Of a stretch of 64,000 nt of DNA, positions 5,421 through 39,060 are shown piece by piece; position 1 is the first letter of the stretch, and the number at the start of each line of letters is the position of its first letter. The notes below the pieces were generated by a model that worked only from the letters and a program-made list of their open reading frames with translations, was not told the DNA's origin and did no database searches. This DNA comes from Bacillota bacterium. GTDB lineage: Bacteria; Bacillota; TC1. A program made the position numbers and the translations under genes. Location: positions 1-64,000 of the forward strand of contig JAQUGR010000001.1 in NCBI GenBank assembly GCA_028683955.1, read 5' to 3'.

Positions 5421-7103
5421 ATGAAAATGACCGGTGCGGAAGCATTATTAAAAATTTTGGAAGGATATGGTGTTAAACACATATTCGGATATCCTGGTGG
5501 AGCTGTTCTTCCACTTTATGATGCAATTTTAAACAATCCAAATATAGAACATATTTTGGTAAGAAGTGAACAGGCTGGAGCTCATGCTGCTGCGGCTTAT
5601 GGTAAATATATAGGTCAATCTGGAGTGTGTATTGGAACTAGTGGACCAGGTGCTACAAATTTGGTTACTGGTATTGCTAATGCTTACATGGATTCGATAC
5701 CTCTACTGGCTATTACAGGTCAAGTAGATTCAAGTTTTATTGGTAGAGATGCTTTCCAGGAGGCTGATATAACTGGGATTACAATGCCGATTGTTAAACA
5801 TAACTATTTGGTTAAAGATCCTAAAAAATTAGTGGATATTATTTATGATGCATGGCATATTGCTAATACTGGTAGAAAAGGTCCAGTGTTAATTGATATT
5901 CCTAGAAATGTTTTTGAAGCTACTGTTGATTTTGAACCTAGAACAGATTTGGTAAAAATCAAAGGTTATAAGCCTACTTATGAAGGGCATCAGTCTCAAA
6001 TAAAAAAGGCAGTTAAAATGATAAATAGTAGTTTTAAACCACTTTTGTTAGTTGGTGGTGGTGTTAATTTTTCTAAAGCAGAAAAGGAAGTAGTAGAGTT
6101 TGTAGAAAAGTATAATATTCCTATGGCTACTACTTTAATGGGCATAGGTACTTATGATGAGACTAAAGATCTTGCATTAGGTATGATAGGTATGCATGGT
6201 ATGCCTTATGCAAATTATGCTGTTCATCATTGTGATTTGTTAATTGCTGTTGGTACTAGATTTGGTGATAGGGCAACTGGTTCTTTAAGCAAATTTGCCA
6301 AGGATGCAAAGATAATTCATATTGATATTGATCCAGCAGAAATTGGTAAGAATGTTTTAATTGATTTACCTATAGTTGGTGATGCTAAAAGTGTTCTGTC
6401 TGAAATTTTATTGGGTATTGAAATTGTTGAAAGAAATGAATGGTTAGAAAAAATTATTGAATTAAAATCTAGAAATAGGATGTTATTACATAAGACTGCC
6501 TTGAATCCTCAGTTGATTATTCAAAAATTAGGGGATATGGCAAGGGATGATATTCTTATAGCTACTGATGTTGGTCAACATCAGATGTTTGCAGCTCAGT
6601 ACTTTAAGTTTAGTCAGGAAAATTCCTTGTATACTTCTGGTGGTCTAGGAACAATGGGATTTGGACTTCCAGCTGCTGAGGGTGTTGCTTTAGCTGCAGG
6701 TGGTAAAAAGCAGGTTTTCTGTATAACTGGTGATGGTAGTTTTCAAATGAATATGGCTGAAATGGCTACTATCGTAGAGCATAATTTGCCAGTAAAGATT
6801 TTATTATTGAATAATTCTAGCTTGTGTCTAGTTAAACAGTTACAGCATTTTCAATGTGATAAACGTTTTAGTGAGGTAAGTTTTACTGGTAATCCAGATT
6901 TTAGTGCAATGGCTAGAAGTTATCCTAACATGACAGCTTATAGAATTGAAAATGAAGATGAAATAGAAAGTGTCTTGAAAGAAGCTATGAGTCATAATGG
7001 TCCTAGTTTGATAGAGTGTATAATAAGTGATGAAAATCTAGTATATCCGATTGTTCCTGCTAAAAAAGGTTTGGCAGAAATGATTGGTGTAGAAAAATGG
7101 TAG
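5421..7103 (+). CDS. Second acetolactate synthase large-subunit paralogue
   Basis: A 560-residue IlvB-family ThDP enzyme. It keeps catalytic E50 (RSEQAGAHAAAAYG), GRDAFQEAD, and the ThDP motif GDGSFQMNMAEM ending LLNN, so it should be active. The substrate loop reads SSLCLVKQLQHFQ where the first copy has SLGMVRQWQ: Gly, Met and Trp are replaced by Cys, Leu and Leu (L474 at the Trp position). In E. coli AHAS II the Trp-to-Leu change is known to abolish the preference for 2-ketobutyrate, so I infer this copy makes mainly acetolactate for valine and leucine. The ATG abuts the ilvN stop codon; translation is probably coupled. Confidence 0.9.
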   Translation: MKMTGAEALLKILEGYGVKHIFGYPGGAVLPLYDAILNNPNIEHILVRSEQAGAHAAAAYGKYIGQSGVCIGTSGPGATNLVTGIANAYMDSIPLLAITGQVDSSFIGRDAFQEADITGITMPIVKHNYLVKDPKKLVDIIYDAWHIANTGRKGPVLIDIPRNVFEATVDFEPRTDLVKIKGYKPTYEGHQSQIKKAVKMINSSFKPLLLVGGGVNFSKAEKEVVEFVEKYNIPMATTLMGIGTYDETKDLALGMIGMHGMPYANYAVHHCDLLIAVGTRFGDRATGSLSKFAKDAKIIHIDIDPAEIGKNVLIDLPIVGDAKSVLSEILLGIEIVERNEWLEKIIELKSRNRMLLHKTALNPQLIIQKLGDMARDDILIATDVGQHQMFAAQYFKFSQENSLYTSGGLGTMGFGLPAAEGVALAAGGKKQVFCITGDGSFQMNMAEMATIVEHNLPVKILLLNNSSLCLVKQLQHFQCDKRFSEVSFTGNPDFSAMARSYPNMTAYRIENEDEIESVLKEAMSHNGPSLIECIISDENLVYPIVPAKKGLAEMIGVEKW

Positions 7104-10811: not shown

Positions 10812-11158
10812 GGGGATGTAATGGTTTCGACGGGGGATTGGAAGTTGGAGCTGCCAGTCAGGGTGGATTCGCCTGTAAACGGGTCAAAAATTTTTAAACG
10901 CAAACAATAAAAGTTTAGCTTTAGCTGCCTAGTGCAGCCACCGGTGCATTTTATCCTCGCGGGGGTGTGTTTGGTGTTAATTTAGTGAGGGTGCATCTAG
11001 GGTAAGAATCAAACCTTATTTGTTACTATATGAGTTCTCGTTCATCAGTGGCTTGTTCATTGGCTTATTGGTGGATTAAATTTAAGAATGGACTATGCTC
11101 GTAGACGCTCCTTTGGAAAGTTTTTCGGACAGGGGTTCGACTCCCCTCATCTCCACCA
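10812..11158 (+). ncRNA. ssrA: Transfer-messenger RNA (tmRNA)
   Basis: The 5' end GGGGATG (10812-10818) pairs with CATCTCC (11148-11154) to form the acceptor stem, and the RNA ends in ACCA (11155-11158). Other hallmarks are GGTTTCGACGGGG after the 5' end and the T-arm GGTTCGACTCC. The internal frame begins at resume codon GCA (10900) and reads ANNKSLALAA before TAG (10930-10932), giving the tag AANNKSLALAA with the typical LALAA degron. tmRNA rescues stalled ribosomes with SmpB and marks the products for proteolysis. The total length of 347 nt is typical. Confidence 0.97.
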
Positions 11159-16628: not shown

Positions 16629-16692
16629 ATTATTATCATTATCAGATTTGTTGTATTTTAATAAAAAATGTGTCATAATTGAAGAAACTAAG

Positions 16693-16775
16693 AAAAGGGC
16701 AAACTCAACGAAAGTTGAGGACGCAAAACCAAGGGCCTAAGGTCTTAAAGACTATGGTAGCCGAGTTGCCGAAAG
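16693..16775 (+). promoter_or_regulatory. Cyclic di-GMP-I (GEMM) riboswitch, first of a tandem pair
   Basis: The sequence has the GEMM-I hallmarks: the start GGGCAAA, GGACGCAAAACC, GGCCTAAGGTC, ACTATGGTAGCCGAGTTGCCG. P1 pairs about 16698-16704 with 16764-16770. The aptamer is followed 22 bases later by its own terminator (16797-16833). In class I switches with this layout, ligand binding usually alters terminator formation; the direction (on or off) cannot be read from sequence alone. Confidence 0.93.
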
Positions 16776-16796
16776 TTTTATGTAAGTTAAGATTTA

Positions 16797-16833
16797 AAAC
16801 TTCCATTTCGGTAATTCGAATGGAAGTTTTTTT
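16797..16833 (+). terminator. Terminator of the first c-di-GMP riboswitch
   Basis: AAAACTTCCAT pairs with ATGGAAGTTTT around TTTCGGTAATTCGA, followed by T7. It forms the expression platform of the first aptamer. Confidence 0.88.
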
Positions 16834-16845
16834 ATTAAGAATAAA

Positions 16846-16871
16846 AGCTTAAATGAAACTTCATTTAAGCT
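16846..16871. repeat. Extra hairpin between the two riboswitches
   Basis: AGCTTAAATGA (16846-16856) and TCATTTAAGCT (16861-16871) form a perfect 11 bp stem with loop AACT and no T tract. It separates the first terminator from the second aptamer. Confidence 0.6.
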
Positions 16872-16888
16872 GTGTAAAGAAAAAAAGA

Positions 16889-16967
16889 AAAAAGCAAATT
16901 CGACGAAAGTTGGAGACGCAAAGCCACGGACCTAAGGTCGAAAGACTATGGTAGCCGAGTTGCCGAT
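16889..16967 (+). promoter_or_regulatory. Cyclic di-GMP-I (GEMM) riboswitch, second of a tandem pair
   Basis: A second complete aptamer: GGAGACGCAAAGCC, CGGACCTAAGGTC, ACTATGGTAGCCGAGTTGCCG. It is closely similar to the first but has a different P1/P2 sequence, and it is followed by a separate terminator at 16995-17031. The hydrolase gene begins 20 bases after that terminator. Confidence 0.93.
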
Positions 16968-16994
16968 ATATATTTGGAAGAATAGTGTTTTACT

Positions 16995-17031
16995 TACTTC
17001 TATTTCGGTAACCGGAATAGAAGTATTTTTT
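16995..17031 (+). terminator. Terminator of the second c-di-GMP riboswitch
   Basis: TACTTCTATT pairs with AATAGAAGTA around a CGG/CCG apical stem, followed by a T run. Transcripts must pass this and the first terminator to reach the downstream gene. Confidence 0.88.
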
Positions 17032-17052
17032 ATTTAAAAGGAGATGAAATTT

Positions 17053-18120
17053 ATGAGAATCTTAAAAGCTGGATTTATAGTAGTAACTATTAGTTTACTT
17101 CTATTATCTGTAAATAATATTACTGTAAAAGCTGCTGATTTGTATTCTAGTTTTCAAGAACTTTCATCAGCAAAAATTGAAGGAACTGACTATAGAATTA
17201 GTAGTCGTAAAACCTCTTCTTCTTTGGCAATAATTGCCATCCATGGAGGAAGTATAGAACCAGGAACTACCGAACTAGCTGATAATATTGCTGGATCAAG
17301 CTATGCTTATTATTCATTCCAGGGAATTATGAGCAGTAATAATTCATCATTACATATAACTTCAACAAAATTTGATGAACCAATAGCACTTTCCTTGGTT
17401 CAAAGCAAAAGTAGAACTTTATCAATTCACGGATTCTCAAGTTCATCTAAACTAACTTATGTTGGTGGTCTTGATAAAACCATGATTGCTAATATTAAAA
17501 AAAGCTTACAAAATGCAGGTTTTAATGTAGCTACTGCTCCATCAAATTTAGGAGGAATGAGTACGTTAAATATTGCAAACAAAAATACAAGTAAAGCTGG
17601 AGTACAAATTGAGTTATCAACAGCACAAAGAGCAAGTTTTTTTTCTAGTTTAACAACTTCAGGAAGAAAAACTAAAACAGCTGAATTCTATAAATATACA
17701 AAAGCGATAAAAGAGGCTCTTAATCCTACAACAATTGTACAACCAAAACCAGTAGAAAAAACCACTACAACAACTACTACAACTCCAACTGTACAACCAA
17801 AACCAGTAGAAAAAACTACTTCATCTCCAACTGTACAAACAAAAACAGTAGAAAATACAAGTAGTATACCTGCAGAACAAGATACAGAAAATACAGATAA
17901 AGTAGTTGGTAGTGCAGCAATTGTACAGTCCAAAACAATAGAAAATATTAGTAGTGATTTATCTGAAGATACTAGTGTAGCTAATGTAGATACTACAAAC
18001 AGCTCAACTGTGCAAGAATCTGATAATACAATGTTATTGAAATTCGTTAATGCATTTTATATTGGATTTATGATTATTGGTTGGTCTCCATCATTATTGC
18101 AAATGAATAGAGTTGGTTAA
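17053..18120 (+). CDS. Exported poly-gamma-glutamate hydrolase family protein, c-di-GMP-controlled
   Basis: 355 residues from ATG 17053; AAAAGGAG lies 10 bases upstream, too close to the alternative ATG at 17044. It begins with a signal peptide (about 1-27, ending VKA). The catalytic domain (about 28-220) is of the phage-type poly-gamma-glutamate hydrolase family (PF05908), with the zinc motif AIHGGSIEPGT, LSIHGFS and GVQIELS. A Thr/Pro/Val-rich linker follows with near repeats of TVQPKPVEKTT, and then a hydrophobic C-terminal helix (about 328-348) that could anchor it at the surface. It would cleave poly-gamma-glutamate or a similar gamma-linked polymer outside the cell. Expression is gated by two tandem c-di-GMP-I riboswitches. 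Confidence 0.85.
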   Translation: MRILKAGFIVVTISLLLLSVNNITVKAADLYSSFQELSSAKIEGTDYRISSRKTSSSLAIIAIHGGSIEPGTTELADNIAGSSYAYYSFQGIMSSNNSSLHITSTKFDEPIALSLVQSKSRTLSIHGFSSSSKLTYVGGLDKTMIANIKKSLQNAGFNVATAPSNLGGMSTLNIANKNTSKAGVQIELSTAQRASFFSSLTTSGRKTKTAEFYKYTKAIKEALNPTTIVQPKPVEKTTTTTTTTPTVQPKPVEKTTSSPTVQTKTVENTSSIPAEQDTENTDKVVGSAAIVQSKTIENISSDLSEDTSVANVDTTNSSTVQESDNTMLLKFVNAFYIGFMIIGWSPSLLQMNRVG

Positions 18121-18296: not shown

Positions 18297-19031
18297 GTGA
18301 ATAGTACTTTAAACTTTATTAAGGGAAATAGTAAGTTAGCCAAGATATTGATTTATTATTTTGTTATACCGAATCTAATTTTCTTTTGTTCGGATTTCAT
18401 CTATGATGATATAAATAGTTGGTTATATTCTTTATTTCTTATATTATTATTGGCTATCATTATTGTTTTTGCATTGATAGGTATAATAAGAATAAATAAA
18501 TTATATAGTTTTAGGGAAAATGGTTTAGTAAAAAGATACTTTAAAAGCTGGGCCTACACAATTATCTCTATTATTTTATTTACTGCATGGTTTTTTACTT
18601 TGGTAATATTATTAGCTTTTTTAGTGGGAATCTTTACTATGAATTTATACATAGACATTGATACTGTAGCTGATAAATGTATGGATTTATTAATGTACTA
18701 CTATTTGCTATTGTTTATTTTAGGAATACCTTTAATACAAATTATTACTACAAACTACATATATATGAAAGAATCTATAATAGTATCTTTTTTTAGTATA
18801 TTTAAATTAAACGTTGGTAATTATATTAAACTGATTACACTTATGGCTCTTTATTTTTTTGCTATGGTGATTATTTATGAAATATCAACATTGGTAACAA
18901 TTATTACAATACTAGTATCAAGTTTAGTTTATTTTATTTATTTAATTGAACTATCTAAATTTTTCCTGGAACAATGGAATAGTGTTGTTTTAATAAAAGA
19001 AAATAATAAATTAAGTTTTAGTGTAGAATAA
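18297..19031 (+). CDS. Multi-pass membrane protein of unknown function
   Basis: A 244-residue, very hydrophobic protein starting at GTG 18297, with AAAGGAG 8 bases upstream. About six membrane helices are visible (for example 20-37, 42-65, 85-113, 131-152, 175-198 and 200-225), in pairs as in stand-alone permease-like or DUF-type proteins of Firmicutes. I see no catalytic motif. It is followed 32 bases later by the DUF3048 gene and may be co-transcribed with it. Confidence 0.75.
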   Translation: MNSTLNFIKGNSKLAKILIYYFVIPNLIFFCSDFIYDDINSWLYSLFLILLLAIIIVFALIGIIRINKLYSFRENGLVKRYFKSWAYTIISIILFTAWFFTLVILLAFLVGIFTMNLYIDIDTVADKCMDLLMYYYLLLFILGIPLIQIITTNYIYMKESIIVSFFSIFKLNVGNYIKLITLMALYFFAMVIIYEISTLVTIITILVSSLVYFIYLIELSKFFLEQWNSVVLIKENNKLSFSVE

Positions 19032-19063
19032 ATTAAAAATTAGTTGACATGAGGAGAGAAAAA

Positions 19064-20104
19064 ATGAAAAAAAAGATTATTATAATCGGTATTAGCATAA
19101 CAACTGTTGTAATTTTGTTAGGTGTATTAGCTTTTGTATTTATTTTTGGGGGTAAGAAGAATGAACCTGTAAATGATACCTCTAGTTATAAAGAACCTAT
19201 TGGTACAGATTCTGGAGTTAACCTACAAATATCAACCACTACTGGATTACAATTTGAAGATGAATATAAACCAGTAATGTCTGTTATTGAAAATTCACCA
19301 TCTGCTAGACCACAACTTGGACTACAAACAGCTGATGTTGTTTATGAAGTGCCTGTTGAGGGAGCAATAACTCGTTTTGTTTGTGTTTTTTCAGATAATG
19401 TGCCTGATAGTATAATGCCAGTAAGAAGTGGTAGAGCACCATTCCTTTATATTCAAGCAGAATGGGATGCTATATTTATGCATTTTGGTGGCTCTGGATC
19501 AGGTAGTAGTAGTGCTGCAGAATATACATTTTATGGTAATAGTCTTCATGATAAAATAAAAATTGATTTAGAAGGATTAGTAAGTTATCATGATGGTATT
19601 TTTAAGCGGGTTAATACTGCAAAAGCACCTCATAATGTTATGGGTAATCCCTTATTAGCTCAAAAATTATATAATTATACTCCAGCACCATTGGACTGGA
19701 AGTTTAGTTCAACAGTATATTATCCTGGAGATTCTGTTACTAAAATAGATCTTCCTTTAACAACTAGTACTAAAAATTTCGTATCATATGTTTATGATTT
19801 TGACGAAGGGGTATATTTTCGTTCTATGAGTGGTGTTCCATTTATGTCTGCTGAAACTAAAGAACAATTAAAAGTGAAAAATGTGATTGTGCAGTATACA
19901 TCATATACAGTTAAGTCTTCTATATTAAAAGATTGGAAGATGGTTGGTTCTGGTAGTGCTGACTTCTATATTGGAGGAATGTATGTAAAAGGTACTTGGT
20001 CTAAAGCCACACCAACAGCTCAGACCATGTTTCTTGATGCTGAGGGGAATCCAATTGTTCTTAAACCAGGAAATACTTGGATTCATATAAGCTCTGTTAA
20101 ATAG
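19064..20104 (+). CDS. DUF3048 domain protein (YerB-like), membrane-anchored
   Basis: 346 residues from ATG 19064 (AGGAGAG 6-12 bases upstream; an ATG at 19049 precedes the Shine-Dalgarno). An N-terminal membrane helix (about 4-25) is not followed by a lipobox. The extracellular DUF3048 region contains PVMSVIENSPSARPQLGLQTADVVYEVPVEGAITRF and related family motifs, SIMPVRSGRAPFL and the C-terminal beta domain. B. subtilis YerB is a relative. Function is unknown, but the family is linked to the cell envelope. A strong terminator follows. Confidence 0.85.
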   Translation: MKKKIIIIGISITTVVILLGVLAFVFIFGGKKNEPVNDTSSYKEPIGTDSGVNLQISTTTGLQFEDEYKPVMSVIENSPSARPQLGLQTADVVYEVPVEGAITRFVCVFSDNVPDSIMPVRSGRAPFLYIQAEWDAIFMHFGGSGSGSSSAAEYTFYGNSLHDKIKIDLEGLVSYHDGIFKRVNTAKAPHNVMGNPLLAQKLYNYTPAPLDWKFSSTVYYPGDSVTKIDLPLTTSTKNFVSYVYDFDEGVYFRSMSGVPFMSAETKEQLKVKNVIVQYTSYTVKSSILKDWKMVGSGSADFYIGGMYVKGTWSKATPTAQTMFLDAEGNPIVLKPGNTWIHISSVK

Positions 20105-32256: not shown

Positions 32257-32369
32257 ATATATTGATAAAAATGACTTTATTAATAAAATATGACAAAACA
32301 AGTTAAAAAAAGAATATAATATAATTAATAGTAATCAAAAAAACTCTAAGAATATAGGAAGTGAACATT

Positions 32370-35300
32370 ATGAAAAATTTCTACAAACAAATTTTAAATA
32401 ATTCACCCTTTGCTTTTTCCTATCAAAAAATAATATATAATGAGTCAGGTAAGGTTATTGATTATACTTTTATAGAAACTAATCCTGCTTTTGATAATAT
32501 GTTTGGTTATAAAAACAATGAAATTATTGGTAAAAAAGCATCTGAGCTAGGTTTGGGAGATGAGTTATACTCAGCTGATTTTCTTGAGAAGATTGGTAAG
32601 GTGGTTAAAGTAGGTGGTAGTTTTCAATTTAAGGTTTCATCCATAATCAAAGGAATAGAGTTAGTTGTAGTAGCTCAGTCATTGGATATAGACTTTTTTA
32701 TAATGACTTTTCAAGATAATCTAGAATTAATTGAAAATAAAACAAATGCATATCAAAATATTGAAGTATATAAGAAAAGTTTTAAAGATTCTCCTATAGG
32801 TCTTGTTAAAACTTCTTTAGATGGGATGCTAATTGATGTTAATGACAGATTTTGTGAGATTCTTGGTTACACTAAAGAAGAACTTGTAAAAATGCATTTT
32901 TTAGATATTACTTATGAAGAAGATAAAAATTTATCCTTTAAAGGTACTGCTGGGATGAAAGATGGAAGTTCTCCAGTATTAAATATAAAAAAAAGATATA
33001 TAAAAAAAAATGGGGAAATAGTTTGGGTAGAACTATTTTCAAGTTTAATTAAAAATTCAAATGGAATACCAATATATTTTGAGACAATCATTATCGATAT
33101 TACAGAACAAGAACAACTTCAAAAACTGCTTATAGAAAGTGAAGAAAGATTTAAAATGCTCTTTGATAAAGCTCCACTTGGTTATCAATCATTGGACATT
33201 AATGGTAGATTTATTGAGGTGAACGAGAAATGGCTGAATATCTTAGGATATAATCGTGAAGAAGTTATAGGTAAATGGTTTGGTGATTTTATGACACCAA
33301 AATATCAAGAGTTAGTTAAAGAGAAATTTCCGATTTTTCTAAAAAATGGTTATGTTAATACTGAATTTGAGATGATACATAAAAATGGAGATATTTTATT
33401 TATAGCTTTCGATGGTAAAATAGCCTATGATAAAAAAGGTCAATTTAAGCAGACTCATTGTATTCTAAAGGATATTACAAATGAGCATAAATTAGAAAAA
33501 GAGCTTGAAGACAATAACCTATTAATTAAATCTATTATTGATAATACAAGCGATTCAATTTATGTGAAAGATACAAAAGGAAGATATTTACTTTTTAATA
33601 AAGCTGCAGAAAGAATTTGCGGAGTATTATATGAGGATATTTTAGGTAAAGATGATACCTCAATTTTCAAGCCTGAGGAAGCTGAAGTTGTTATGTCTGG
33701 TGACCGAAAAGTTATGGCAGAAAAACAAACAATTAACATTAATGAAGTATTAACTTATAAAAGTAATGAAGAACATTATATTTCTAGTATAAAAGGACCT
33801 ATATTTAATAATAATAATGAAATAATAGGGATGTTTGGAATATCAAGAGATATGACTAAAAGTAAAAATTTAGAGGCTAAACTTGAACAATCATTGACTG
33901 AACAAAAATTATTAATAGATAATTTGCAAGCAGGTGTTGTTGTATATGATGGGGATTACTCTATTTTATCTTGTAATAAAGTTGTGGAAGATTTTCTTGG
34001 GTTATCCTTAGAACAAATAAAGAGCAATAAAGCTTCTGATTCTTTATGGAAGTTTTTTAAAGAAGATGGATCTACACTTGGCATTGATTATTATCCAGTA
34101 AGAAGAATTCTAAATAGCAAAAGCTCTTTAGAACCTTATGTATTAGTTGTGGTCTCTAAAGCTAATAATATAAAAAAATCTATTCTTATTAATGGTTATC
34201 CAATTTTAGATAAAAATAATAACATTGAAAAAATTATAATAAGTTTTATTGATATTACAAATGCAAAAAGCACTGAGGCGAAATTAGCAAAACAAAATGT
34301 TTTATTTGGTAAAATGGAGAAGGTTGCAAAAATTGGTGGTTTTGAAATTAATATAAAAAATCAAACTCAGTCATGGACAAATGAAGTTTATCATATTTTA
34401 GAAATTCCGATATATAAGGAAGAATCAATAATATTAGAAGAACTTAATTTTGTCTTGCCTGAATATAAAGAAGAAGCAAGGTATGCTATAGATAATGCTG
34501 TTAATTTAAAAAAACCTTTTAATCATGAGTGGCAAATTATTTCAGCTAGAGGAAATAAAAAATGGGTTCAGGTTATAGGCCATCCAATAATTAAAGATTG
34601 GATTATTACAGATATAGACGGATCTTTTCAAGATATAACAGAAAGGAAGGAAGCGGAAATTAGACTTAAAAAAAGTGAAGAAAGATATCGTCTTATTACT
34701 GAAAATACAGTTGATGTAATAAGTGTTTACAATATAGGTAAAAATAAGTTTGTATATGTAAGTCCATCAATAGAAAAATTACTAGGATTTACTGTAGAAG
34801 AATTCCTGAATAAAAAAAGTAAAGATATTTTAGCTAAGGAATATTATGAAATTATAGATTCAGTGTTACCTAAGCATATAGAAAGATTTCGTGAAAATCC
34901 TAATAGAGAAGATTTTCATAGAATGGAGATTAAAGAAAAATGTAAAAATGGAGATAAAATATGGGTTGAGGTAACTACAAGATATGAATATAACAGTATT
35001 GGGGAAGTTGAAGCTATAAGTAGTACTAGAAATATTGAAGAGCGAAAAAAAGCTGAAGCTGAAATGCAAAGATTAAGCTATCGTGATCAATTAACTGGAT
35101 TATATAATCGTAGATTTTATGAAGAAGAACTACAGAGATTAGATACATACAGAAACCTGCCGATAGCCTTGATAATGGCAGATGTTAATGGATTAAAATT
35201 AACAAATGATGCCTTTGGTCATTTAAAAGGTGATGAGCTCTTAATCAGAATAGCTGGTATATTGAAAAAAGAAACTAGGAATGACGAAATAATTTCTAGA

Positions 35301-36089
35301 ATTGGTGGAGACGAATTTGTTATACTAATGCCAAAAACTGATGAAACGGGAGTTAAAATGCTTATTGAAAGAATAAGTGAAGTTGTAAATAAAGAAAGAG
35401 TTGATGATATTGTTGTTTCTCTATCACTTGGGTATGCTGTAAAAAAATCATCATCAGAAAAGATGGAAAAAGTATTTAGGGATGCAGAAGATGATATGTA
35501 TCGTCATAAACTTACAGAAAGTTCTAGTATGAGAAGTAGAACTATAAGTGTAATCATGAATTCTTTATTTGAAAAAAATATTAGAGAAATGCATCACTCA
35601 AAAAGAGTGGCTGCTATTTGTGAATTTATTGCAACTAAAATGAATTTTAATAAGGATGAAATAAAACAAATTAGAATTGCAGGATTAATGCATGATATTG
35701 GAAAAATTGGAATAAATAATGAAATTTTAGATAAAAAAGGCTCACTTACAGAGTCTGAATGGGATGAAATAAAAAAACATAGTGAGGTAGGTTATAGAAT
35801 ACTCAGTTCAGTAAATGAATTTTCGGAAATTGCTGTTTTTGTTTTAGCTCATCAGGAAAGATGGGATGGGAAAGGTTATCCTCAAGGTTTAAAAGGGGAT
35901 AATATACCTATAGAAGCGAGAATTATTGCAATTGCTGATGCTTTCGATGCAATGATATCTGAAAGAGCATATCGACCAAAGCTGTCTAAAGAAGAAGCAA
36001 TTTTAGAAATAGAAAAACAGGCAGGTAAACAGTTTGATCCTGAGATTGTTGAAATATTTGTAAATAGTATTAAAATTAGTGAATGGTAG
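32370..36089 (+). CDS. Multi-PAS GGDEF / HD-GYP signalling protein
   Basis: 1239 residues from ATG 32370 (AGGAAGTG upstream; GTG 32361 is an alternative). No membrane helix is seen, so it should be cytosolic. Six or seven PAS-like sensor segments fill about 1-895 (repeated cues: GYKNNEIIGKKASELG, GYTKEELVKMHFLDIT, GYNREEVIGKWFGDF, VYVSPSIEKLLGF). A diguanylate cyclase domain follows (about 905-1065) with intact RIGGDEFV but a degenerate I-site (RNDE instead of RxxD). The C-terminal HD-GYP phosphodiesterase (about 1075-1235) has HDIGKIGI and HQERWDGKGYP. It can in principle both make and break c-di-GMP. Confidence 0.93.
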   Translation: MKNFYKQILNNSPFAFSYQKIIYNESGKVIDYTFIETNPAFDNMFGYKNNEIIGKKASELGLGDELYSADFLEKIGKVVKVGGSFQFKVSSIIKGIELVVVAQSLDIDFFIMTFQDNLELIENKTNAYQNIEVYKKSFKDSPIGLVKTSLDGMLIDVNDRFCEILGYTKEELVKMHFLDITYEEDKNLSFKGTAGMKDGSSPVLNIKKRYIKKNGEIVWVELFSSLIKNSNGIPIYFETIIIDITEQEQLQKLLIESEERFKMLFDKAPLGYQSLDINGRFIEVNEKWLNILGYNREEVIGKWFGDFMTPKYQELVKEKFPIFLKNGYVNTEFEMIHKNGDILFIAFDGKIAYDKKGQFKQTHCILKDITNEHKLEKELEDNNLLIKSIIDNTSDSIYVKDTKGRYLLFNKAAERICGVLYEDILGKDDTSIFKPEEAEVVMSGDRKVMAEKQTININEVLTYKSNEEHYISSIKGPIFNNNNEIIGMFGISRDMTKSKNLEAKLEQSLTEQKLLIDNLQAGVVVYDGDYSILSCNKVVEDFLGLSLEQIKSNKASDSLWKFFKEDGSTLGIDYYPVRRILNSKSSLEPYVLVVVSKANNIKKSILINGYPILDKNNNIEKIIISFIDITNAKSTEAKLAKQNVLFGKMEKVAKIGGFEINIKNQTQSWTNEVYHILEIPIYKEESIILEELNFVLPEYKEEARYAIDNAVNLKKPFNHEWQIISARGNKKWVQVIGHPIIKDWIITDIDGSFQDITERKEAEIRLKKSEERYRLITENTVDVISVYNIGKNKFVYVSPSIEKLLGFTVEEFLNKKSKDILAKEYYEIIDSVLPKHIERFRENPNREDFHRMEIKEKCKNGDKIWVEVTTRYEYNSIGEVEAISSTRNIEERKKAEAEMQRLSYRDQLTGLYNRRFYEEELQRLDTYRNLPIALIMADVNGLKLTNDAFGHLKGDELLIRIAGILKKETRNDEIISRIGGDEFVILMPKTDETGVKMLIERISEVVNKERVDDIVVSLSLGYAVKKSSSEKMEKVFRDAEDDMYRHKLTESSSMRSRTISVIMNSLFEKNIREMHHSKRVAAICEFIATKMNFNKDEIKQIRIAGLMHDIGKIGINNEILDKKGSLTESEWDEIKKHSEVGYRILSSVNEFSEIAVFVLAHQERWDGKGYPQGLKGDNIPIEARIIAIADAFDAMISERAYRPKLSKEEAILEIEKQAGKQFDPEIVEIFVNSIKISEW

Positions 36090-36666: not shown

Positions 36667-39060
36667 ATGTTTTGGAAAATCAAAAAAAAAGATAGTCCAA
36701 TAAGAAAAAATTTTATTTATATTCAATTAGTAACAATTTTAACTATAGTTGTTCTCCTTGGAGTTGTTAGCATGGAATTTTCTAAAAGTGTACTTTTAAA
36801 TCAATTAGAAAATGATGCCAAACACTATGGAGGGATGACAGGAAAATATATAGAACAAAATCAAATAACTAACAACATTATAAATAAAAATATGGAAGAT
36901 TTAGCATATAGTTTAAGTGCGGAAATATTAAACTCAAAAAAAGATTTAAGCAATGTTTATTTAAAAGATATTTCTAGAAATTTTGGGGTTGATGCTATTT
37001 ATTATTACTCTCCTACTGGAACAATAATATATTCTTCTGATGGAGAATATATAGGTTGGAAGGCAAAACCCGGTGATCCAATATATTTATTTATGAATAG
37101 TGGTAAAAATATTTTCAACGAAGATATTAGAAAGAGTACAGATTCTGATGAATATTATAAATTTAGTTATTTTAAAGATGATAATGGTAATTTTGTACAA
37201 ATTGGATTTTTGTTGGATAATATTGAAATCCAAACAAAAAAGTATGATTTTCAAACTATAGTAAATGATATTACAACTGATGATAAAATATATTATTCCT
37301 TAATTATTGATAATAACTTAATAGGAATTGCAGATAGTAACTTAGAAAATGTTGGCATGGATTGGAGTAAAGACTCTAATTATCAAAAAGCCTTAAAAGG
37401 CGAAACTGTTGTTGTTAATATTTATGATGAAGATTTGAAAGAAAATGTGCTGAAAATTATTGTTCCAATAGTAAGTGATGGACAAATTAGTGAGTTATTG
37501 GTAATTGGTCATTCTCTTGATTCTTTAAATGATTTAGTAAGTAACTCAAGCATAAGAATTTTAATTACTTTGTTAGTAATTAGTGCAGTTATCTTGTATA
37601 GTCAATGGAAATTTATGATTAATCCAATAAATTTATTAAACAACCAACTCATATACTTTGACTTCATAAAAAAAGGTCATAAACTTAAAATAAAACAAAA
37701 TGATCCATTTAAAGGGGTTTACCTAACAATAAATAATTTACTTGCTAGAGTTGATGAATATATAAACAAGAATATTGAAATGAAAGAATATGTGGAATAT
37801 GAAGCATATCATGATGAACTAACAAATCTTGAAAATCGTAGAGCTTTATATGAAGAATTAGATAGAATATTAAAGGATAATATTAGTGGTTCAGTATGTA
37901 TGATTGATTTAAATAATCTTAAAGAAATTAATGATATATATGGACATATTACAGGAGATGAAATTTTAAAAAATATTGCGCATAGATTCAGAGGACAAAT
38001 TGATGAACAAATAAAATTTTATCGTTTCGGTGGAGATGAATTTATTGCTATAATTCTAGGTGATAAAGATTGCATCAAGAAAAAATATAAGCGTATCTTT
38101 AAAAGTATAAGTAAACCAATAAAAAATGAAATGAAAGAATTCGAAATATCATTTTGCCTGGGTATATCTTCTTTCCCAAAAGATGGAAGATCCAAAAATG
38201 AATTGATAAGTAAAGCAGATATTGCCATGTATTATGTCAAAAAAAATTTAGGATCAGGATTTGCCTATTTTAGACCATTTATGCAAAAAAAATTAAATAG
38301 AAGATCAGAGATAAATAATATATTAAAGGAAGCAATAAAAGGAAAAGGATTTAATTTACTTTATCAACCTATCTATAATACTCATATAAAATGTATAGCC
38401 TATTATGAAGCTTTAATTAGATTGGATGACTATCAAATTTCACCAATTGATTTTATAAAAGTAGCAGAAGACAAGGGTTTGATAATTGAAATTGGAAGGT
38501 TTGTTATTAGGGAAGCTATTAAACAACTTTATAAATGGAAATTAAAAGGTATTGAGCTAAAGACTATAGCAGTAAACTTATCCCCAAATCAAATTAAAGA
38601 TAAAAAACTGGTAAAATACATTCTTGCATTATTGGCTGAATATGATATTGAAGCCAAGTATTTGGAAATTGAGATTACTGAAGACATATTTATTGAGAAT
38701 TCATTGGAAGTTGTGGCTTTTCTTGAAAGCTTGAAAAATATCGGACTTAAAGTAACCTTAGATGATTTTGGATCGGGTTATTCTTCTTTGACTTATTTAA
38801 CTTTTATGCCAATAGATAAAATAAAACTTGATAAAATTCTGATAGATAAATATTTAACCAAAGAAAAATTAAGTATAATAAAAAACATTATAAATATTGC
38901 TCATGACCTTAATCTTTTAGTTGTTGGTGAAGGTATAGAAACAGCAGATCAATATGATATGTTAAAAGAAATGGATTGTGATTTTATACAAGGTTACTAT
39001 TTTAGTAAACCTGTAAACTGTGAAACAATTGAAAAAATGTTATTAAATAAAACTAACTGA
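36667..39060 (+). CDS. Membrane-bound GGDEF-EAL protein
   Basis: A 797-residue protein. Membrane helices at about 17-37 and 295-315 enclose a dCache/Cache-like extracellular sensor. A GGDEF domain (about 375-530) has FGGDEFIAI, and an EAL domain (about 545-790) has YEALIRL, NLSPNQ, EITED, DDFGSGYSSL, KLDK and GEGIET, the expected catalytic set for c-di-GMP hydrolysis. AGGAG lies 9-13 bases before the ATG. Together with the preceding GGDEF/HD-GYP protein it could set the c-di-GMP level read by the riboswitches at 16.7-17 kb. Confidence 0.94.
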   Translation: MFWKIKKKDSPIRKNFIYIQLVTILTIVVLLGVVSMEFSKSVLLNQLENDAKHYGGMTGKYIEQNQITNNIINKNMEDLAYSLSAEILNSKKDLSNVYLKDISRNFGVDAIYYYSPTGTIIYSSDGEYIGWKAKPGDPIYLFMNSGKNIFNEDIRKSTDSDEYYKFSYFKDDNGNFVQIGFLLDNIEIQTKKYDFQTIVNDITTDDKIYYSLIIDNNLIGIADSNLENVGMDWSKDSNYQKALKGETVVVNIYDEDLKENVLKIIVPIVSDGQISELLVIGHSLDSLNDLVSNSSIRILITLLVISAVILYSQWKFMINPINLLNNQLIYFDFIKKGHKLKIKQNDPFKGVYLTINNLLARVDEYINKNIEMKEYVEYEAYHDELTNLENRRALYEELDRILKDNISGSVCMIDLNNLKEINDIYGHITGDEILKNIAHRFRGQIDEQIKFYRFGGDEFIAIILGDKDCIKKKYKRIFKSISKPIKNEMKEFEISFCLGISSFPKDGRSKNELISKADIAMYYVKKNLGSGFAYFRPFMQKKLNRRSEINNILKEAIKGKGFNLLYQPIYNTHIKCIAYYEALIRLDDYQISPIDFIKVAEDKGLIIEIGRFVIREAIKQLYKWKLKGIELKTIAVNLSPNQIKDKKLVKYILALLAEYDIEAKYLEIEITEDIFIENSLEVVAFLESLKNIGLKVTLDDFGSGYSSLTYLTFMPIDKIKLDKILIDKYLTKEKLSIIKNIINIAHDLNLLVVGEGIETADQYDMLKEMDCDFIQGYYFSKPVNCETIEKMLLNKTN

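Follow-up and report, generated by a model that had tools for sequence, protein, structure and literature searches.

The locus lies in a stretch of 64,000 nucleotides from a Bacillota bacterium (the window), and it consists of two c-di-GMP-I riboswitch aptamers in tandem, each followed by an intrinsic terminator, and of a gene for a hydrolase of family PF05908 (Table 1). The genome to which the window belongs (G000) has a size of 1.59 Mb and is 98% complete. The stretch downstream of the hydrolase gene (18297-20104) encodes a multi-pass membrane protein without a Pfam match and a DUF3048 protein. A DUF3048-like neighbour was also found beside the tailed hydrolase in the related genome G003 (L063) and was absent at the tandem locus of the sister genome G001. 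The window also contains a tmRNA gene (10812-11158, 156.8 bits).

Table 1. Features of the tandem riboswitch locus and related elements. Positions refer to the window unless another locus is named.
Feature	Position	Strand	Basis or remark
Predicted promoter, TTGTAT-N17-CATAAT	16651..16679	+	sequence; immediately upstream of aptamer 1
c-di-GMP-I aptamer 1	16688..16773	+	RF01051, 86.2 bits, E 1.2e-15 (Rfam cmscan)
Anti-terminator strand 1 (predicted), UUGCCGAAA	16766..16774	+	3' end of aptamer 1; pairs with 16806-16814
Intrinsic terminator 1	16796..16832	+	hairpin and U run, -15.2 kcal/mol, z -5.5
Partner of the aptamer 1 3' end, UUUCGGUAA	16806-16814	+	within terminator 1
Inter-switch hairpin	16846..16871	+	-12.3 kcal/mol, z -7.0
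c-di-GMP-I aptamer 2	16883..16967	+	RF01051, 81.6 bits, E 1.7e-14 (Rfam cmscan)
Anti-terminator strand 2 (predicted), UUGCCGAUA	16960..16968	+	pairs with 17003-17011
Intrinsic terminator 2	16994..17032	+	hairpin and U run, -17.7 kcal/mol, z -6.9
Ribosome-binding site, GGAG	17040..17043	+	sequence; 9 bases before ATG 17053
PF05908 poly-γ-glutamate (γ-PGA) hydrolase with signal peptide, linker and C-terminal hydrophobic helix	17053..18120	+	Pfam, homologues, conserved catalytic residues
GGDEF/HD-GYP protein	32361-36089		
GGDEF-EAL protein	36667-39060		
Fourth c-di-GMP-I element	L067 7564-7639	-	
Fourth c-di-GMP-I element	L066 about 6697-6772	-	
Fourth c-di-GMP-I element	L048 920-995		

An earlier note on this DNA had proposed two complete tandem c-di-GMP-I riboswitches with a separate terminator for each aptamer, and both proposals were borne out. 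In the Rfam search, the two aptamers exceeded the RF01051 gathering cut-off of 35 bits and matched the model over its full length (positions 1-87 of 87), and no shuffled sequence folded as well as either terminator hairpin. A consensus scan revealed no promoter-like sites on the plus strand between the aptamers, so that the leader has the layout of a tandem riboswitch, i.e., an own terminator after each aptamer and no intervening promoter. The proposed boundaries were slightly shifted. Aptamer 1 begins at 16688 and not at 16693, and the start codon of the hydrolase is likely ATG 17053, which was favoured over the in-frame ATG 17044 because the latter overlaps the ribosome-binding site. The predicted promoter in front of aptamer 1 was too weak to be detected in the consensus scan; the remaining leaders identified in the genus have a TTGCAT/TTGCTT-N17-xATAAT-like pair in front of their switch as well. 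The hairpin located between the two switches has a comparable counterpart at the equivalent place in G001 and is possibly a spacer or an insulator.

Alignment of seven switches of the genus showed that G19 and C89 were invariant. These positions, assigned partly after the Vc2 structure, are taken here to be the G (not A) that gives preference for c-di-GMP over c-GAMP and the C with which the ligand pairs. The roles of the selectivity position and of the ligand-pairing C have been described (PMC9262584, PMC9481103). Both aptamers of the window are thus predicted to read c-di-GMP.

Each of the seven switches of the genus showed complementarity between the aptamer 3' end (UUGCCGAAA or a close variant) and a segment in the 5' arm and loop of the following terminator (UUUCGGUAA or a variant). 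Across these switches, 93.7% of the cells of this anti-terminator pairing were paired, versus at most 49% when the partner was slid. The duplex of strand 1 with terminator 1 (-16.6 kcal/mol) was better than that with any of 49 other terminators. In four of the seven switches, the own terminator outperformed every one of the 49 controls taken from the genus; it was outdone by one control for G001_S, by seven for G000_S and by eight for G003_S. In transcripts cut at the terminator loop, the anti-terminator pairing was the minimum-energy fold in each of the seven switches and was favoured over the aptamer plus downstream region by 2.3-9.1 kcal/mol. The terminator stems of the seven switches contained two compensatory pairs with changes on both sides; in the anti-terminator pairing of the same switches, where the pairs hardly vary, no compensatory change was observed. 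Because the anti-terminator strand is itself conserved aptamer sequence, covariation cannot prove this pairing, and the case for the putative anti-terminator is carried by complementarity, not by covariation.

The aptamer strand captured in this pairing includes the ligand-pairing C. A similar capture has been described for the OFF switch Cd1, whose anti-terminator pairs with C87 and G86 so that the binding pocket unfolds; there, the ligand favours the terminator (PMC9262584). Considering this logic and the capture of the ligand-pairing C, the switches are predicted to be OFF switches, by which c-di-GMP would repress both hydrolases of the genome. Folding and pairing agreed with the Cd1 type in 7/7 switches, as judged from folds predicted without ligand. 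The opposite polarity, with c-di-GMP preventing termination and the hydrolase being made at high c-di-GMP to remodel γ-PGA in sessile growth, appears improbable. It would be in line with the pilM-type c-di-GMP-I relatives, which are ON switches (PMC9262584), with the terminator-like stem that overlaps the aptamer of a fourth c-di-GMP-I element in sister genomes, and with persistence of the anti-terminator in the full-length minimum-energy fold of G000_A1. However, the terminator of an ON layout consumes the aptamer, whereas the terminators studied here are free-standing, lie downstream and are compatible with the folded aptamer, the 3' end of which is consumed by the competing fold instead.

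The earlier note expected a steeper or a two-input response from the series layout. Only the first part held, and only to a modest extent: by series arithmetic, the 10-90% response of two ideal equal switches in series covers a 40-fold ligand span where a single switch needs 81-fold. Two inputs are not expected, since both aptamers carry the c-di-GMP-type G and a single input would be read twice. The same arithmetic decreases a leak of 10% to 1%, i.e., repression is squared. The gain from the tandem is therefore a tighter OFF state together with a modestly steeper response, the tight shut-off being the larger gain. The layout alone is ordinary because 347 doublets and 12 triplets of c-di-GMP-I switches have already been published (PMC9481103).

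The product of the tandem-gated gene was assigned to PF05908 with an E value of 4.5e-67 (225.7 bits versus a cut-off of 22), with residues 34-221 covering the whole profile (1-191 of 191). Its solved relatives are PghP and YndL/PghL (E 6e-31 to 2e-41). In PghL, His41, Glu46 and His102 bind zinc, and His77, Thr79, Ser80, Glu165 and Arg171 serve catalysis or substrate binding, Glu165 being the catalytic glutamate and Arg171 the arginine that anchors L-glutamate chains (PMC6506827). By alignment, the zinc ligands correspond to H67, E72 and H129 of the window hydrolase, and the remaining residues correspond to H104, T106, S107, E190 and R196 (numbered from ATG 17044); the catalytic glutamate and the anchoring arginine are thus both present. 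The zinc and key substrate residues were invariant in all five homologues of the genus. The fold assignment rests on homology to the solved PghP and PghL; an AlphaFold2 model built on a five-sequence alignment had a mean pLDDT of 36 and was set aside. The gene is therefore predicted to encode an enzyme that cuts γ-PGA. With both leader segments scoring as c-di-GMP-I and the zinc-ligand arrangement in place, the initial identification of the switches and of their target stood.

PghL cuts only L-glutamate stretches. Conservation of Arg196 predicts the same L-specific cutting by the window hydrolase, and a pure D-polymer would resist it. The capsule of Bacillus anthracis is composed entirely of D-glutamate; if the capsule of the present bacterium were of this kind, the window hydrolase would not cut it.

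A linker of about 100 residues, in which Thr, Pro, Lys and Glu abound, separates the catalytic domain from a C-terminal hydrophobic stretch; a linker, a C-terminal hydrophobic helix and a signal peptide had been described in the earlier note. The tandem-gated copy of G001 has this tail as well, and the single-switch copies lack it. No LPXTG motif was visible, and the hydrolase is probably tethered at the cell surface by its C-terminal helix. Recent arrival of the tandem-gated copy by phage or plasmid was also considered and looks unlikely, since no close relatives turned up among the viral contigs scanned and the best plasmid relatives among the matches listed were 38-51% identical, in the catalytic domain only.

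The genome of the window contains three c-di-GMP-I elements, namely, the two in the window and one at C7:222843-222928, and two PF05908 genes, namely, the window gene and C7:222103-222666, which lies directly behind the third element. Therefore, all c-di-GMP-I switches of this genome serve PF05908, and all of its PF05908 members are switched. A c-di-GMP-II match of 39.4 bits (L110 1501-1582; G000:C12:4396-4477, minus strand) was left uncounted, the curated cut-off being 53.5; the protein encoded by the nearest open reading frame of that locus, on the opposite strand, has AQDYAKEW repeats. There were 16 GGDEF matches in the genome, including the GGDEF/HD-GYP and GGDEF-EAL proteins of the window, which the earlier note had pointed out and which proved to be real.

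The second hydrolase has a single switch and is short, secreted and devoid of the tail. At its locus (L065 8082-9020, minus strand), a diverged catalytic domain stands behind a near-identical leader: from the switch through the ribosome-binding site to the signal peptide region, it shares 93-95% identity with its counterpart at the second switch of the tandem locus, and in the catalytic part identity to the tandem-gated gene falls to 52-83% per 60 bases. The short copy is a mosaic, which suggests copying of the leader between the loci by gene conversion. If recombination shuffles leaders in this way, as the mosaic paralog and the near-identity of the second and the single leader indicate, the tandem could be a duplication remnant in which only one of the two switches still functions. 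This is very unlikely, however, given that the window and the sister species alike retain intact versions of both aptamers, both terminators and both anti-terminator partners, as well as the spacer hairpin.

A γ-PGA operon, pgsB-pgsC-pgsA-capD-like, is arranged tail-to-tail with the second hydrolase gene. Its PgsB (TIGR04012, 494 bits, cut-off 222.7) and PgsC (TIGR04011, 129.9 bits, cut-off 96.5) both exceeded the NCBIfam equivalog cut-offs, and the operon also encodes a PGA_cap protein and a γ-glutamyltranspeptidase (GGT). For this GGT, the two chains of B. anthracis CapD taken together (217.9 and 132.1 bits) scored above the best full-length GGT in the PDB (252.2 bits). CapD joins γ-PGA to the cell wall (PMC4497714). 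The gene set, with its CapD-like GGT, therefore reads as one for synthesis of a wall-anchored γ-PGA capsule, from which we infer the identity of the polymer.

Conservation of the arrangement was studied in related genomes. G001, a MAG labelled 'Fusobacteria bacterium' (WTXA01), has both a tandem switch with a tailed hydrolase and a single switch with a short hydrolase that adjoins pgsB; G003 has a single-switch copy and a tailed copy cut by the contig end. Of six same-family genomes, the same three had PgsB above the cut-off and PF05908, and both were missing from G002 (only 79% complete), G004 and G005. In the phylum, 15 of the 399 genomes sampled contained PF05908, 12 of them outside the genus, and none of 20 PF05908 loci outside the genus had any Rfam element within flanks of about 1.5 kb. 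The hydrolase is indeed an unusual cargo for this riboswitch, as had been supposed, and as far as sampled, its gating by c-di-GMP-I appears to be a lineage-specific invention.

In G001, the gene immediately upstream of the tandem switch encodes a PocR-GGDEF-HD-GYP protein (L060 8158-9765, minus strand), and a c-di-GMP enzyme is therefore a direct neighbour there. The fourth, weaker c-di-GMP-I element (63-64 bits) was detected in G001, G004 and G003 and was not found in the genome of the window. In G001 and G004, it lies upstream of GGDEF and/or HD-GYP genes, and the G001 copy has a terminator-like stem (GCCUUU...AAAGG-U7) whose sequence overlaps that of the aptamer, in the style of an ON switch. 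This element may provide feedback on c-di-GMP metabolism with a polarity opposite to that of the hydrolase switches.

In bacteria other than Bacillales, pghP and pgsB are found together in just 13% of cases; pgsB is missing from most pghP carriers of this group, and the enzymes have been proposed to scavenge foreign polymer (PMC4497714). Accordingly, the hydrolases of the present genus might target the polymer of other organisms, as food or as a habitat barrier to be removed, with c-di-GMP merely tuning foraging. This reading is unlikely, although less so than an ON polarity. The genus itself encodes a full synthesis operon, which converges on one of the hydrolase genes, and both traits co-occur across the genus; moreover, the hydrophobic C-terminus of the tandem-gated enzyme in both species suggests retention on the cell. 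Judging by gene content, the genus is an exception to the non-co-occurrence of pghP and pgsB, one in which the control is visible.

The mechanism proposed is as follows. When c-di-GMP is absent, the aptamer 3' end would pair with the 5' arm and loop of the emerging terminator, which would block the terminator and allow the polymerase to read through. When c-di-GMP is bound, the 3' strand would be kept in the binding pocket, the terminator would fold and transcription would stop. The leader would thus act as two independent transcriptional OFF switches in series. Because a transcript would have to escape both terminators, the hydrolase is expected to be high only at low c-di-GMP and tightly OFF otherwise. 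Its product would be exported, would probably be tethered at the surface and would cut γ-PGA, so that high c-di-GMP would keep the polymer and low c-di-GMP would lead to its trimming or shedding. Considering the cell's own capsule operon and the adjoining second switched hydrolase, the tandem OFF switches and the single-switch paralog most likely form a c-di-GMP-controlled program of capsule trimming or shedding, a reading that we hold with moderate confidence. The control sign, the single-switch paralog, the adjoining γ-PGA operon and the conservation in sister species were absent from the earlier note, and the last three greatly strengthen the connection with a surface polymer.

A simple swim-or-stick interpretation was dropped, since flagellin was not found in the six same-family genomes. 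More tentatively, and with somewhat less than even confidence, the entire c-di-GMP-I regulon may be devoted to capsule removal: a flagellin-less bacterium would keep two phage-type depolymerases, both OFF-switched, and use them to shed its own γ-PGA coat when c-di-GMP drops, one copy being tandem-gated and surface-tethered and the other single-switch and secreted.

The usual targets of c-di-GMP are the polysaccharide matrix, pili and flagella. In the present bacterium, c-di-GMP appears to govern, by RNA alone, whether a polypeptide capsule is taken off. If true, this would explain, in one lineage, why phage-type γ-PGA hydrolases are kept by γ-PGA makers: they would serve regulated coat removal and would be neither phage leftovers nor feeding enzymes. 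In the literature searched, which included few subscription journals, no report tying c-di-GMP or any riboswitch to PF05908 was found. The parts are known and their regulatory combination seems to be new; the sequence features are firm, and polarity and substrate are predictions.

Among known systems, the tandem c-di-GMP-I riboswitches (PMC9481103), such as the triple tandem of Bacillus thuringiensis, share with the present leader the aptamer class, the serial separate platforms and a sharper response to one ligand. The target differs, being a γ-PGA hydrolase here, and every switch of the genome serves PF05908. Cd1 of Clostridioides difficile likewise has a free-standing terminator and, as predicted here, an anti-terminator that captures the 3' strand with the ligand-binding C (PMC9262584). 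In contrast to Cd1, two copies are present in series here, a different gene is controlled and the polarity is predicted. The zinc γ-PGA hydrolases PghP and PghL (YndL), which belong to PF05908 and MEROPS M86, have the full domain and all zinc and key substrate residues in common with the window enzyme. The latter differs in being chromosomal, riboswitch-gated, by its signal peptide exported, and equipped with a linker and a C-terminal helix, and its host genome contains pgsB/capB, pgsC/capC and a capD-like gene as well. Finally, the capsule operon resembles capBCAD of B. anthracis in its gene set, in its B-C-A-D-like order and in its CapD-like GGT; unlike capBCAD, it has no switch of its own and has as its neighbour a hydrolase gene gated by c-di-GMP.
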